Origin: Candidatus Bathyarchaeota archaeon
Lineage (GTDB): Archaea > Thermoproteota > Bathyarchaeia > Bathyarchaeales > SOJC01
Assembly (NCBI GenBank): GCA_020352645.1
Contig: CP070683.1
Coordinates: 1,342,956-1,406,955 of the forward strand
DNA: 64,000 bases
Reading direction: 5' to 3'
Made by a program: the position numbers and the translations under genes. Within the stretch, counting starts at the first letter, position 1. Every line of letters starts with the position of its first letter. Below the pieces are notes generated by a model. It was not told the origin of the DNA, searched no databases, and was given only the letters and a program-made list of their open reading frames with translations. Below, piece by piece: positions 19,931 to 24,655 of the stretch.

Positions 19931-21145
19931 TTGCTAGTAGAGTTGGTGCAGCAAATGCCCTCTGGAAGTCTTGAGATTAGCTCTGGTGTTTTTTGGGTAG
20001 GTGTTGAAGACTGGGATCGCAGAGTATTTGACGCTTTCATTCCACTGCCGTATGGCACTTCATACAATTCCTATTTGATTGTGGGCAGCAACAAAAGCGC
20101 TCTCATTGATACAGTAAATCCGGGGTTCGAAGGGTCCCTCCTCCGGGAAATCAGCCAGATATTGGCTCCTGAAAAGCTTGACTACGTGATAATGAACCAT
20201 GCTGAGCCGGACCATGCAGGCAGCATTCCTGCGGTTCTTAAGATAGCTAAGCACGCCAAGCTCGTTGCGTCCAAGCTGGGTGTTAATATGGCTGAAATGT
20301 ACTTCAAAGTGCCTCATGAAAGGCAGATCCGGGTTAAGGAGAATGATGTAATAGAACTTGGAGGAAAGACATTGAGATTCATCGAGGCTCCTTGGCTACA
20401 TTGGCCGGAGACCATGTTCACCTACGACATGGCTGAAAAGGTGCTTTTTTCCTGTGATTTTTTCGGTTCTCACATGACATCTGGTAAGCTCTATGCAGAT
20501 GAGGTTGGTAAGCTATTGCAGCCTGAGGCTAAACGGTACTACGCAGAAATCATGATGCCTTTTTCCGCTTCAGTGCAACAAGCTCTGGATAAGGTTAAGC
20601 TTCTACAGCCTGAGAAAATCGCGCCTAGCCATGGCCCAGTATACAGAGACCCTCAAGCAATTATTGAGTTATATGAAAAGTGGGCACGTGGGCCTCTTGA
20701 AAAGAAGGTGGTTGTGATTTACGTCTCTATGTGGGGCAACACAGAAGCCTTGCAGAGAGTAATAACTGAGACGATTTCATCTAAAGGCATAGAGGTTATA
20801 CCCTACAACCTCACTGTTTCTGACGTTTCTCACGTTCTCAGAGATTTGGTGGATGCAAGCGCCGTGGTCATCGGATCGCCGACAGTCCTCGGCGGAGCAC
20901 ATCCACTAGCAATGTATGCAACTGAACTGGTAGCTTCCTTCGGAGTCAGAGGAAAGATTGCAGCCGTTTTTGGCTCTTTCGGATGGGGTGGAGGTGCGGT
21001 GAGACGCTTGACTGCGCGCTTGGAAAAAGGGGGATTTGAAATAGTTGATGCCTTGGAGGTGCGCGGGCCACCAGAAGAGGAGCATTTCAGAAGAGCTGTC
21101 ACTTTAAGCGAAGCAATCGCGGACAAAGTTGCAGGAGAAACTTGA
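19931..21145 (+). CDS. Flavodiiron protein (F420H2 oxidase FprA-like)
   Basis: 404 residues. The N-terminal metallo-beta-lactamase domain carries the diiron ligands H90-x-E92-x-D94-H95 (NHAEPDHAGS), H157, D176 and H234. The C-terminal flavodoxin domain (from about 256) binds FMN, with VIYVSMWGNTEAL and IGSPTVLGGAHP. Such proteins reduce O2 to water, or NO, in the cytoplasm of anaerobes; in methanogens the donor is F420H2. All iron ligands are present. The start is uncertain: TTG 19931, or ATG 19955 if the TATA-like AACTTATTTA upstream gives a leaderless mRNA. Confidence 0.93.
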   Translation: MLVELVQQMPSGSLEISSGVFWVGVEDWDRRVFDAFIPLPYGTSYNSYLIVGSNKSALIDTVNPGFEGSLLREISQILAPEKLDYVIMNHAEPDHAGSIPAVLKIAKHAKLVASKLGVNMAEMYFKVPHERQIRVKENDVIELGGKTLRFIEAPWLHWPETMFTYDMAEKVLFSCDFFGSHMTSGKLYADEVGKLLQPEAKRYYAEIMMPFSASVQQALDKVKLLQPEKIAPSHGPVYRDPQAIIELYEKWARGPLEKKVVVIYVSMWGNTEALQRVITETISSKGIEVIPYNLTVSDVSHVLRDLVDASAVVIGSPTVLGGAHPLAMYATELVASFGVRGKIAAVFGSFGWGGGAVRRLTARLEKGGFEIVDALEVRGPPEEEHFRRAVTLSEAIADKVAGET

Positions 21146-21276
21146 CGCCTGAATGGCTTATTTCCAGCATAGATCTGCTCTGCAATTCTACGCAGTCTAT
21201 CAGCTTCACTATTGAAGCAGCTTCGAATCGTGGGAACACTTATCAAAATCTGAGCAATCTCGTCTTCGTCTTCCAT
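21134..21276 (-). pseudogene. Possible remnant or antisense-overlapping small gene
   Basis: From the ATG at 21276 the minus strand encodes about 47 residues with a protein-like mix (MEDEDEIAQIL, then EADRLRRIAEQIYAGNKPF). It starts 24 nt after the PAC4-like gene. The frame continues to 20830, but beyond about 21134 it is antisense to the flavodiiron gene and becomes Ser/Thr/Pro-rich, like a shadow frame. It may be a truncated gene or chance. Confidence 0.22.
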
Positions 21277-21299
21277 CTGCTAAAGGAAGGTATGCAAGC

Positions 21300-21692
21300 T
21301 CATATGCTGAGATCTCCTTTCGCGCTAGCTGTCTGTGGTGCGTCGTCTGTCGTTGTGAGCTTGTTGAAAAGCTTGATGAGGATAGGGTTTGCTTCGGTTT
21401 CATTCATAGTGCTTAGATGCACTGAAACCAAGCCGATTTTTCCTGTCTTGGCCGCAAGCCTTTCGGCCAGTATGCGCGCAGTTGCGGTATTTCTGTCTCC
21501 TAGGAGAATTGATGAGACAAGTGGCTTCATCTGCATCTGGGTGGCTTGAGGTACAGACGCAGCAAGCGTTCCTAGCTGATCTTCGGATTCGCTGAGGAAG
21601 GCTAAGACAGCGTTTTTAGTTTCTATATAAATGCCCAAGAAGTGTACAGCTCTCTCTGAAAGCTCTTTCTTCACGATTATTGCTCGTGTCAT
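21300..21692 (-). CDS. Proteasome assembly chaperone 4 (PAC4/PSMG4)-like protein
   Basis: 130 residues from ATG 21692 (GTG 21701 is possible). The sequence follows the eukaryotic PAC4 pattern in order: VHFLGIYIETKNAVLAF, an acidic turn, LGTLAASVP, then VSSILLGDRNTATARILAERLAAKTGK and VSVHL. Human PSMG4 as I recall it has VHF, NLAVAM, VSTSLLGD, LAQRLARKTNK and VSYNL at the matching places. PAC3-PAC4 help build the 20S alpha ring. A minus-strand TATA box, GATATATAAC (about 21729-21738), lies about 40 nt upstream. The family call rests on a remembered alignment and needs a profile search. Confidence 0.6.
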   Translation of the reverse strand: MTRAIIVKKELSERAVHFLGIYIETKNAVLAFLSESEDQLGTLAASVPQATQMQMKPLVSSILLGDRNTATARILAERLAAKTGKIGLVSVHLSTMNETEANPILIKLFNKLTTTDDAPQTASAKGDLSI

Positions 21693-21769
21693 CTGATCCA
21701 CCGGTTGAAGTTGGCTCTAATTATGTTATATATCATTGCTATTAGAATTGGCAAGATTGGAAATCCAGC

Positions 21770-22045
21770 TCACTCCAGTCGTTTTACTATGTGATATCCA
21801 TACTTGGTCTTTATGACAGGTGAGATTTCACCTTTCTTAAGGGAGAAGGCAGCTCTCTCGAATTCCTTTACCATCATCCCTCTTCCAAATGCTCCTAGAT
21901 CTCCACCACGTTTTTTCGATGGACAAAGCGATTCTTGCTTGGCAATGTTTGCGAACTTCTCTCCTCCATTCAAGCGGCTCAGAACGTTGTCTGCTTCCTC
22001 CTTCGTTTTAACAAGGATGTGGGCACAGTGAATCTTGGTTGGCAT
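21770..22045 (-). CDS. Parvulin-type peptidyl-prolyl isomerase
   Basis: 91 residues from ATG 22045: IHCAHILVKTKEEADNVL, GEKFANIAKQESLCPSKKRGGDLGAFGRGMMVKEFERAAFSL, then VIKTKYGYHIV. The His pair (HILV and GYHIV), the GDLG and F-x-x-A-x-F-x-L elements and the length match stand-alone archaeal/PpiC parvulins of about 90-95 residues. It catalyses prolyl cis-trans isomerisation. There is no signal peptide, so it is cytoplasmic. Confidence 0.92.
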   Translation of the reverse strand: MPTKIHCAHILVKTKEEADNVLSRLNGGEKFANIAKQESLCPSKKRGGDLGAFGRGMMVKEFERAAFSLKKGEISPVIKTKYGYHIVKRLE

Positions 22046-22212
22046 GTGAAACGATAACGCCACTTACAATTATAAGAATTGCTGCCTTTGGCAGGTTTTT
22101 CCGTACGGAATGACTTAATGGAAAGCTGGAAGTTTGCCTTTGGTAAAAAATGACTCTTTCGCCTTCATCTTAGAGCGCATCTAGAACTTCGGTCTCGCTA
22201 AGCAGGCTTTTG

Positions 22213-22863
22213 TCACCGTTTAATTCCCTGATCATTTGGTGTTCTTCTGGAGAGAACTGTTCCCTGTCTCTGGCCGATTCTTATCGCAGACCTGGCGTTG
22301 CTCTTGGCTCTTCTTTGTGGTTTCTCCCCACGGCTCCTGCTAGTCATGTCCTCTCTAACTCTCTCGATGATTACATTTTCAGGGAGGAAAGGAAGCAGGT
22401 TATGCAAAAGTTCCTCTGCGTATAGGGGTACTCCGTCTCCAATCTTCAGTGTTATGTTGTCTGCTGGAATGCTGCGGATGGCATGAGTTATTGCGTCGAC
22501 GGCTAGCTGGAGGTTCGTACAATCGTCAGTTTTGATTACTGCTCCGTCGCCGATAATCGCCACACCTATGTTCTGCCCTGGATCTACTCCCACCACAAGT
22601 CTGCCATATGCTTTCTTTCCAGCAACCATTCTAACCGCCTGGTCTACGATTTCGGAAGGATCTGTACCTTCATCATATTCCAAAACATTTCCATGCATTA
22701 CTTGGCTGCGTTCGCTGGCAGTTGTTAGCACTACTTTTATGTCGACCGGGATTTTTTCCTTTGGCGTCAAGCTTAGGAAATGCGCGTTTTTTCTTTTTAG
22801 CTCATTCACTAGCAAATAGTAAGCTTTTCCAGAAACCGTTACCACAGCGATTTTCGCTTTCAT
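22213..22863 (-). CDS. RNase H-fold (RuvC/YqgF-like) archaeal protein
   Basis: 216 residues from ATG 22863. The middle contains LVVGVDPGQNIGVAIIGDGAVI (Asp94), the first strand pair of an RNase H-like fold with its metal-binding Asp. A possible second acid is in KIGDGVP (strand 4). The C-terminus is basic and probably contacts nucleic acid (EKPQRRAKSNARSAIR). The roughly 85 N-terminal residues form a separate domain of unknown type. It is divergent from radB across an 80-nt shared promoter, hinting at a role in recombination or repair (inference). I do not recognise a named family. Confidence 0.6.
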   Translation of the reverse strand: MKAKIAVVTVSGKAYYLLVNELKRKNAHFLSLTPKEKIPVDIKVVLTTASERSQVMHGNVLEYDEGTDPSEIVDQAVRMVAGKKAYGRLVVGVDPGQNIGVAIIGDGAVIKTDDCTNLQLAVDAITHAIRSIPADNITLKIGDGVPLYAEELLHNLLPFLPENVIIERVREDMTSRSRGEKPQRRAKSNARSAIRIGQRQGTVLSRRTPNDQGIKR

Positions 22864-22900
22864 TGTGCGCCCTTTCGCGACGACTCTAGTCAACGGAAAC

Positions 22901-22915
22901 AAAGTTATTAACTTT
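22901..22915. promoter_or_regulatory. Symmetric divergent promoter between the RNase H-like gene and radB
   Basis: AAAGTTA-T-TAACTTT is a perfect 15-bp palindrome centred at 22908, about 36 nt from the radB start and 45 nt from the RNase H-like start. Being symmetric and AT-rich, it could serve as TATA element for both directions or as an operator for both genes. Confidence 0.45.
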
Positions 22916-22943: not shown

Positions 22944-23645
22944 TTGTCTTTGCACAGAGTGATTCCGACTGGATGCAGCTCACTTGACGAGCAATTGGGC
23001 GGGGGTTTGATAGGAAGGGAAATCTCACTTTTGTATGGGGAGCCTGGAACTGGGAAAACCTCATTATCAATTCAGTGTGCTGTAAACTGTGCAAGGATGG
23101 GTTACAAGGCTTTCTTTATAGATTGTGACAATGGCTTTCTCTCCAGACGAATGGAGCAGGTTGCTCCTGAAGACTGCGAAGATATCGCCTCTAGAATAAT
23201 CCTGATGAGGCCTGAAGATTTCGAACAGCAAGCAACTGTTATTGACAAGCTCAATGATTATATTAGCGATGAGACTGGCTTAGTTATTATCGACACAGTC
23301 ACAAGTTTGTATCGCGAGAGATTGGGTGCTGGTATCAAGGAAACTTTTGCGCTGAACCGTGAACTTAACCGCCAAATGGGCCGCTTGGCTCAGACAATAA
23401 AGACTAGAGAAACTGCGGGTCTTGTTGTGAGTCAAGTGCGGAGTGTGATTCTTGGTGAGCAAGGGGCTGTACAGCCTGTCGCTACAAGAGTCTTACATTT
23501 CTGGTCAGATACTATTGTGTTTCTGGAGCCAACATCTCAGGGGAAGCTGGTTAAAGCTATAGTCAAGAAACGCAGAGAGAGAAAACGAATCAGGCCAATA
23601 CTGTTGGAGATTGAGGAAAGAGGACTATGTGATCATGAAGGCTGA
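22944..23645 (+). CDS. radB: DNA repair and recombination protein RadB
   Basis: 233 residues. It begins with PTGCSSLDEQLGGGL, Walker A is GEPGTGKTS (about 32-40) and Walker B is GLVIIDT. Like RadB and unlike RadA, it lacks the N-terminal helix-hairpin-helix domain. RadB is a RecA/Rad51 paralogue that assists RadA in homologous recombination. The start is TTG 22944. The carS gene follows within 30 nt, a probable co-transcript. Confidence 0.93.
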   Translation: MSLHRVIPTGCSSLDEQLGGGLIGREISLLYGEPGTGKTSLSIQCAVNCARMGYKAFFIDCDNGFLSRRMEQVAPEDCEDIASRIILMRPEDFEQQATVIDKLNDYISDETGLVIIDTVTSLYRERLGAGIKETFALNRELNRQMGRLAQTIKTRETAGLVVSQVRSVILGEQGAVQPVATRVLHFWSDTIVFLEPTSQGKLVKAIVKKRRERKRIRPILLEIEERGLCDHEG

Positions 23646-23672
23646 GTGTTCCAGAAGGATGGTGGTGATTGT

Positions 23673-24164
23673 ATGTTGGACATGATCTTTGAATCGCTCA
23701 TATTCATATTTCCGGCCTACTGTGCTAACTCTATCCCAGTGGTCCTCGGTGGAGGTAGGTCTTTAGATTTTGGCCGCAAGTTCATAGATGGTCGACCGCT
23801 ATTTGGCTCACATAAGACTTTTAGAGGATTCTTCGCAGGTCTTTGTGTCGGGACAATTGTCGGTATTGGAGAAAGCATTGTATTTGACTGGTACACTCCT
23901 TTGCTAGGCTTTCTACTGTCCTTGGGTGCAGTACTTGGAGATCTTGGAGGGGCATTCGCCAAGCGGCGGCTAGGACTGGCCCCGGGCGCCTTTTTTCCTG
24001 TAGTTGACCAGATCGATTTTGTGTTGCTAGCATTGGTCTTTTCTATTCCAGTCGCTGCACCCACGCTTATCTTGACTCTTCATATTATTGCCATCACGAT
24101 ACCGATTCACATTTTGACAAATCTTCTTGCATACTTGGTGAAGTTGAAGAAGAAGCCTTGGTGA
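23673..24164 (+). CDS. carS: CDP-archaeol synthase (CarS)
   Basis: 163 residues from ATG 23673, preceded by GGTGGTGAT. Four to five membrane helices are predicted. Motifs: YCANSIPVVLGGGRSLDFG, DGRPLFGSHKTFRGF, GDLGGAFAKRRLGLAPGAFFPVVDQIDF. CarS transfers CMP from CTP to digeranylgeranylglyceryl phosphate, activating archaeal ether lipids for head-group attachment at the membrane. The conserved KTxRG and KRR..PG..FP..DQxD motifs are intact. It is convergent with the OST3/DC2-like gene, 4 nt apart. Confidence 0.93.
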   Translation: MLDMIFESLIFIFPAYCANSIPVVLGGGRSLDFGRKFIDGRPLFGSHKTFRGFFAGLCVGTIVGIGESIVFDWYTPLLGFLLSLGAVLGDLGGAFAKRRLGLAPGAFFPVVDQIDFVLLALVFSIPVAAPTLILTLHIIAITIPIHILTNLLAYLVKLKKKPW

Positions 24165-24168
24165 ACTT

Positions 24169-24603
24169 CTAGCGTAAGGGCGCTATCGTACTTGGGAAGA
24201 GGTAAAACTCTATAACGACCCAGCCGATGAGGAAAAGAAGCAGGCCAAGAAGCAGCATTGTGAATGCCTCACGAGGGTTGTAAGCGTATTTTGTGCTTTG
24301 ATAGACCAGTACCAATCCCATAGTGACGAAGGAATACAAGATCATAGAGGCAACGCTCTCAGCCACCAGCTGCTCGTTGAGAGCCTGTGGGTAGTAAGGT
24401 ATGATCCTGCCACCAGCACCGACAAATGCCACAGCTGGTTGTTCAATAATATCGTAGATTCCTCCTCCTAGCAGAAAAATCGACGTCGCTATTGCCAGCG
24501 TCGCCAAAAGAAACGTTGAAGGCTTAATCGCCATTATCCTTCTGTAAGCCTTTTGAAGATTGTATGAAAGCGAGGTGGCACTCCTTCTGGCTCTACGAGA
24601 CAT
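24169..24603 (-). CDS. OST3/DC2(OSTC)-like membrane protein
   Basis: 144 residues from ATG 24603, chosen because GGTGAAGG precedes it and a TATA-like region lies at about 24656-24667; ATG 24645 is possible. Three hydrophobic segments are present. The pattern LLGGGIYDIIEQPAV, then RIIPYYPQALNEQLVAESVASMILY, then GLVLVYQSTKYAYNPREAFTMLLLG parallels the eukaryotic oligosaccharyltransferase subunits DC2/OSTC (GGIIYDVI.EPP, QYI.EG.ASS, GLGFI..D, ..P....LLL.G). It may assist AglB-type N-glycosylation or docking to the translocon (inference). The call rests on a remembered motif comparison. Confidence 0.6.
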   Translation of the reverse strand: MSRRARRSATSLSYNLQKAYRRIMAIKPSTFLLATLAIATSIFLLGGGIYDIIEQPAVAFVGAGGRIIPYYPQALNEQLVAESVASMILYSFVTMGLVLVYQSTKYAYNPREAFTMLLLGLLLFLIGWVVIEFYLFPSTIAPLR

Positions 24604-24655
24604 TTCCTTCACCTGAACGAAGTATTCTGCCTTTCCTATATGCATTGGAAAGTCT

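Follow-up and report, generated by a model that had tools for sequence, protein, structure and literature searches.

An archaeal member of the PAC4 family in Bathyarchaeia, with gene coupling to UbiD-family decarboxylases among its relatives

Could an archaeon carry a relative of PAC4, a proteasome-assembly chaperone of eukaryotes, and what would such a protein do there? The question is raised by a stretch of 64,000 nucleotides (hereafter the window) from a Bathyarchaeia MAG, a single contig of 1.68 Mb that is 91% complete and whose ends do not overlap. A first-pass annotation, made from the letters of the window, had described one small protein as a PAC4/PSMG4-like proteasome chaperone in an archaeon; the archaeal host is borne out by related genome records, which are those of Bathyarchaeota.

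The gene and its place in the PAC4 family

The gene lies on the reverse strand at positions 21300-21692 and encodes 130 amino acids from an ATG at 21692, with an in-frame GTG upstream at 21701 as an alternative start (133 amino acids); the methionine start is kept across the family alignments A1, A3 and A5. All of the motifs from which homology to PAC4 had been proposed (VHF, LAASVP, SSILLGD, LAERLAAKTGK and VSVHL) are present in the reading frame, and the proposal proved correct. A forward-strand reading frame over the same bases (21142-21549) was matched at only two other loci and was taken as a shadow ORF.

The Pfam PAC4 model (PF16093) matches the window protein at 32.9 bits (E 6e-8), over its gathering cut-off of 31 bits, and at 33.5 bits in the genome search. 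Against Pfam as a whole the protein gave PAC4 and one chance match only, with no match to the PAC2 family (PF09754); sub-threshold or weak matches to Phage_head_chap, Chlam_vir and Ribosomal_S6 were set aside. When the protein alone was searched against the PDB with phmmer, two PAC4 entries ranked top (E 0.014 and 0.017), and 19 of 48 core residues are identical in human PAC4. The archaeal-only profile A1, all 23 members of which match PF16093 at E ≤ 10, reaches the PDB entries for PAC4 at E 4e-6. Similarly, profile A3, built from Bathyarchaeia only, finds it at E 2e-5, and the archaeal profile A5 retrieves human PAC4 as its sole match (E 4e-7), with no other chain up to E 10 in either search. 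A profile of Nitrosopumilaceae sequences only (A4) retrieved chance matches and no PAC4 from the PDB; PF16093 nevertheless gives its members scores as high as 40 bits, and hhalign relates the Bathyarchaeal and Nitrosopumilaceae groups to one another (96%, E 1e-9).

Structure prediction leads to the same family. AlphaFold models the window protein with a moderate pLDDT of 68, and the five best PDB matches of this model (prob 0.99-1.00) are PAC3/PAC4 entries or a human alpha-ring assembly intermediate containing PAC3/PAC4. For a more central relative (L040) the model reached pLDDT 82 and pTM 0.77; its best Foldseek match is human PAC4 (8qyj_M; E 3.8e-9, TM 0.73/0.78, 30% identity), and PAC4, PAC3, Pba3/Pba4 and LpdD make up the whole of its first 18 matches, the next following at E 0.16. 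A search of a viral structure library gave no match. Both a PAC4 profile match over the cut-off and the PAC3/PAC4 fold were found, where the first-pass annotation would have given up its claim had the profiles been silent and the fold different; the PAC3 model that it had also named, PF10178, gave no match in the window genome at E ≤ 10.

Chance resemblance or a false reading frame might be suspected from the weak single-sequence match in the PDB and from the overlapping antisense ORF, but homologues occur in 98 of 300 genomes and independent profile and fold tests concur; this explanation is refuted, and we give it almost no weight. The reading frame is confirmed as real, above chance, and its product belongs solidly with PAC4, both by sequence family and by fold. 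Our search of open-licence papers found no report of an archaeal PAC3, PAC4 or PSMG4; the name PAC4 may already stand on archaeal proteins elsewhere through automatic annotation, because these proteins pass the cut-off of the Pfam model.

The family itself sits, by sequence and fold, within a wider PAC3/PAC4-LpdD superfamily. LpdD is a homodimeric chaperone that was shown biochemically to bind reduced prenyl-FMN and to activate UbiD, and its Pba3/4 fold was noted by its authors (PMC10865409). The Pfam family that covers it is PAC_bac (PF21758): a profile of archaeal PAC_bac proteins matches LpdD at E 9e-16 and PAC4 no better than at 0.03. Comparison of profile A5 with the PAC_bac/LpdD profile A6 by hhalign shows the two to be homologous (96%, E 8e-9), and weak PAC_bac matches occur in 11 of the 23 A1 members; the window protein has none to PF21758. 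When a tree was built from the short domain, a branch supported at 99/95 separated human PAC4 and the archaeal PAC4-like proteins from PAC_bac and LpdD. The exact placement of human PAC4 has weak support (82/63), and the tree drew on partial sequences for both human PAC4 and LpdD. Two PAC_bac proteins, L080 (G228:C38:10341-10682) and L081 (G210:C1:128626-128973), weakly match the PAC4 model and link the two Pfam families.

Distribution and gene neighbourhoods

We surveyed 300 genomes of the phylum Thermoproteota and 14 control genomes for the gene. The PF16093 model matched 76 of the 300 and none of the controls, and the more sensitive A5 profile matched 98 of the 300, with one copy in each. 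By A5 the gene is present, again in single copy, in 42 of 50 sampled Bathyarchaeia, the class of the window, as well as across family f15 and a few other families, and was not found in most other sampled Thermoproteota. We infer that f15 comprises Nitrosopumilaceae-type ammonia oxidisers, and name it accordingly below, because all tested members carry archaeal amoA. In a scan of the sequence collection, the family profile found 18 loci, each of them from Bathyarchaeota or Bathyarchaeum. An apparent second copy in MAG bin1445 (L048:7878-8168) is a fragment beside a run of N and probably an assembly duplicate.

In the window, a parvulin-type PpiC peptidyl-prolyl isomerase (21770-22063, reverse strand; Pfam Rotamase, E 5.5e-24) lies directly upstream of the PAC4-like gene on the same strand, across a gap of 77 bp, and the pair recurs in a related locus (L031). 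It has beyond it a DUF460-related protein of 229 amino acids (22213-22902, reverse strand), whose match to the Pfam model is below the cut-off of 28 bits (19.9 bits, E 6e-4) and whose cluster occurs in 22 of 38 neighbourhoods, that of the window included, in both Bathyarchaeia and Nitrosopumilaceae. On the forward strand lie a RecA/KaiC-type ATPase (22944-23645; Pfam Rad51/KaiC) and the CDP-archaeol synthase CarS (23646-24164; Pfam CarS-like, E 1e-40), each found in 17 loci and each a conserved Bathyarchaeia neighbour. Beside CarS, at 24169-24645, is a membrane protein with a match to OST3/OST6 (E 5e-7) that is likewise conserved in Bathyarchaeia.

In 16 of 37 neighbourhoods a UbiD-family decarboxylase gene, confirmed with Pfam, lies directly downstream of the PAC4-like gene on the same strand, and the junction ranges from an overlap of 35 bp to a gap of 23 bp. 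These loci include all six of Nitrosopumilaceae and ten of Bathyarchaeia, and they are all of the neighbourhoods in which UbiD was found; in the other 21, including that of the window, UbiD does not adjoin the gene. In most UbiD-linked Bathyarchaeal loci an AcnX gene (identified with Pfam) follows UbiD, an arrangement that presumably fits the phosphomevalonate dehydratase of the archaeal mevalonate route. In three loci of other Bathyarchaeal families (L066, L067 and L069) a CLP1/Grc3-type kinase gene takes the adjoining position rather than UbiD, with a gene for an eIF5A-like protein nearby in some such loci. In G126, G150 and similar Nitrosopumilaceae genomes there are two UbiD-family genes: the one that is linked with the PAC4-like gene encodes 445 amino acids, and the other, of 480-500 amino acids, lies elsewhere in the genome.

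The window genome itself, at 91% completeness, gave no match to UbiD or AcnX, and the UbiX model found only a weak, sub-threshold match in a 421-aa ORF. Archaea need isoprenoids. An assembly gap may explain the missing UbiD and AcnX, since the ends of the contig do not overlap. Among the 50 Bathyarchaeia, 38 have both UbiD and the PAC4-like gene, four the PAC4-like gene only (the window genome and three others) and eight UbiD only, a co-occurrence that is uninformative because both genes are near universal in the class. One of the four, G027, retains UbiX, which suggests missing sequence at least in that genome. The canonical UbiX search is also uninformative, since several UbiD-bearing Bathyarchaeal genomes (G106, G118, G001 and G184) have no match over the cut-off; one may ask what supplies these genomes with prenyl-FMN. 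Most other Thermoproteota have UbiD without the PAC4-like gene.

Candidate clients of the protein

The PAC4-like protein is most likely a small, probably dimeric, maturation chaperone. In a mechanism modelled on PAC3/4 and LpdD, its beta-sheet/two-helix monomer would pair with itself. The conserved surface at the SS.LLG[DE]R loop would keep hold of a client or a cofactor up to the maturation of the client, after which the chaperone would leave. The loop of the window protein, SSILLGDR (residues 60-67; 21492-21515, reverse strand), aligns with STSLLGDT of human PAC4 and sits where LpdD has its H-K-D metal/prFMN loop. From the gene coupling in relatives, the most probable client is a UbiD-family decarboxylase, a reading that we hold at somewhat less than even confidence; the decarboxylase would probably be that of the archaeal mevalonate pathway, and the chaperone would help with its prenyl-FMN loading or folding. 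A different client, or both UbiD and the proteasome alpha ring, is a possibility of lower standing.

The proteasome reading, as the first-pass annotation had it, is a serious contender that we hold only slightly below the UbiD reading. The PAC3-PAC4 pair is known from eukaryotic proteasomes, whose alpha subunits are of seven different kinds. By analogy, an archaeal homodimer bound to free alpha subunits or rings on their beta-facing side would block off-pathway double rings and be expelled on the arrival of beta subunits. PAC4 is the nearest relative by both sequence and fold (the sole PDB profile match, the top Foldseek match and the same side of the 99/95 branch), and the window genome holds three proteasome subunits, one alpha and two beta, together with four PAC2-family proteins encoded elsewhere than at the PAC4-like locus; the alpha gene lies beside an SBDS-like gene, the alpha/beta and SBDS-like assignments being our own reading of the sequences. 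The gene is also kept in the four Bathyarchaeia without a detected UbiD, and the metal ligands of LpdD are lost: H35, H61 and D63 align with Q39, D66 and N68 of the window protein, the family as a whole does not conserve them, and human PAC4 likewise does without them, one histidine excepted. Against this stand the 37 neighbourhoods, none of which contains a gene for a proteasome alpha or beta subunit, the two kinds for which they were checked, and the lack of a PAC3 match in the genome, so that the protein would possibly act as a homodimer or with a PAC3-like partner that escaped detection. Moreover, simple archaeal proteasomes can assemble spontaneously (review, PMC13022661), and the PAC4-like gene is missing from many proteasome-bearing archaea, including the Sulfolobus and Methanocaldococcus controls. 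The predicted alpha contacts of human PAC4 are matched only in part: D70 aligns with D66, and R48, which contacts alpha5, with G41, an invariant glycine in the archaeal family; the human and yeast proteins themselves show poor conservation at these contacts (PMC6539346).

A UbiD client is placed slightly above the alpha ring because an overlapping gene order across two classes is direct evidence, whereas what argues for the proteasome is homology. The two readings are nevertheless kept close, since the window genome has no UbiD match and the LpdD ligands are lost. Further points against a UbiD client are that the closest relative by sequence is PAC4 and not LpdD, and that most other Thermoproteota carry UbiD in genomes that lack a PAC4-like gene. 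The UbiD link could also be a local arrangement, with the protein acting as a small dimeric chaperone of broader role or as an RNA- or translation-associated factor in a housekeeping operon, as its Grc3/CLP1-like kinase, DUF460-like, parvulin, NAC and eIF5A neighbours might suggest; the kinase-linked loci and the position of the window gene behind a parvulin favour this, but the conservation of the overlapping UbiD junction in two archaeal classes and the fact that the nearest characterised relatives are all chaperones make it unlikely. The PAC4 homology of the first-pass annotation holds, and its further step to a proteasome chaperone finds no support other than homology; many relatives have UbiD operons, and a known UbiD chaperone, LpdD, has the same fold.

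PAC4, LpdD and other known systems

A single-copy PAC4 homologue in Bathyarchaeia and Nitrosopumilaceae provides a testable archaeal relative of a eukaryotic factor, and some cultured ammonia oxidisers belong to the groups that carry it. Through the coupling to UbiD, two branches of one fold, the proteasome chaperones and the prenyl-FMN chaperones, are brought together, and which of the two roles arose first becomes a matter for experiment. As a speculative suggestion, the ancestor of eukaryotic PAC3/PAC4 might be an archaeal PAC4-like protein that originally helped UbiD-type flavoenzymes to mature, or served UbiD and the proteasome alike; if so, a cofactor-loading chaperone would have been recruited to build a hetero-oligomeric alpha ring.

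Among known systems, the proposed archaeal proteasome helpers PbaA/PbaB belong to the PAC2 family (PF09754), which differs from that of the window protein. PAC3, Pba3 and Pba4 share their fold with the L040 model (Foldseek E 1e-6 to 2.5e-3), although for PAC3 this likeness of fold is not accompanied by a profile match in the window genome. Human PAC4 (PSMG4, PF16093; 5wtq, 8qyj chain M) has in common with the window protein the pattern of VHF and S.LLGD....LA.RLA.KT.K..(V)S; it works with PAC3 as partner and contacts alpha5 through Arg48, whereas for the archaeal protein no PAC3 was found, the arginine is not conserved, and the gene is coupled to UbiD in relatives. LpdD shares the fold of the PAC4-like model (TM about 0.5-0.7) at about 10% identity in the fold alignment, and it works with UbiD, the enzyme whose gene the archaeal PAC4-like relatives adjoin in 16 loci.
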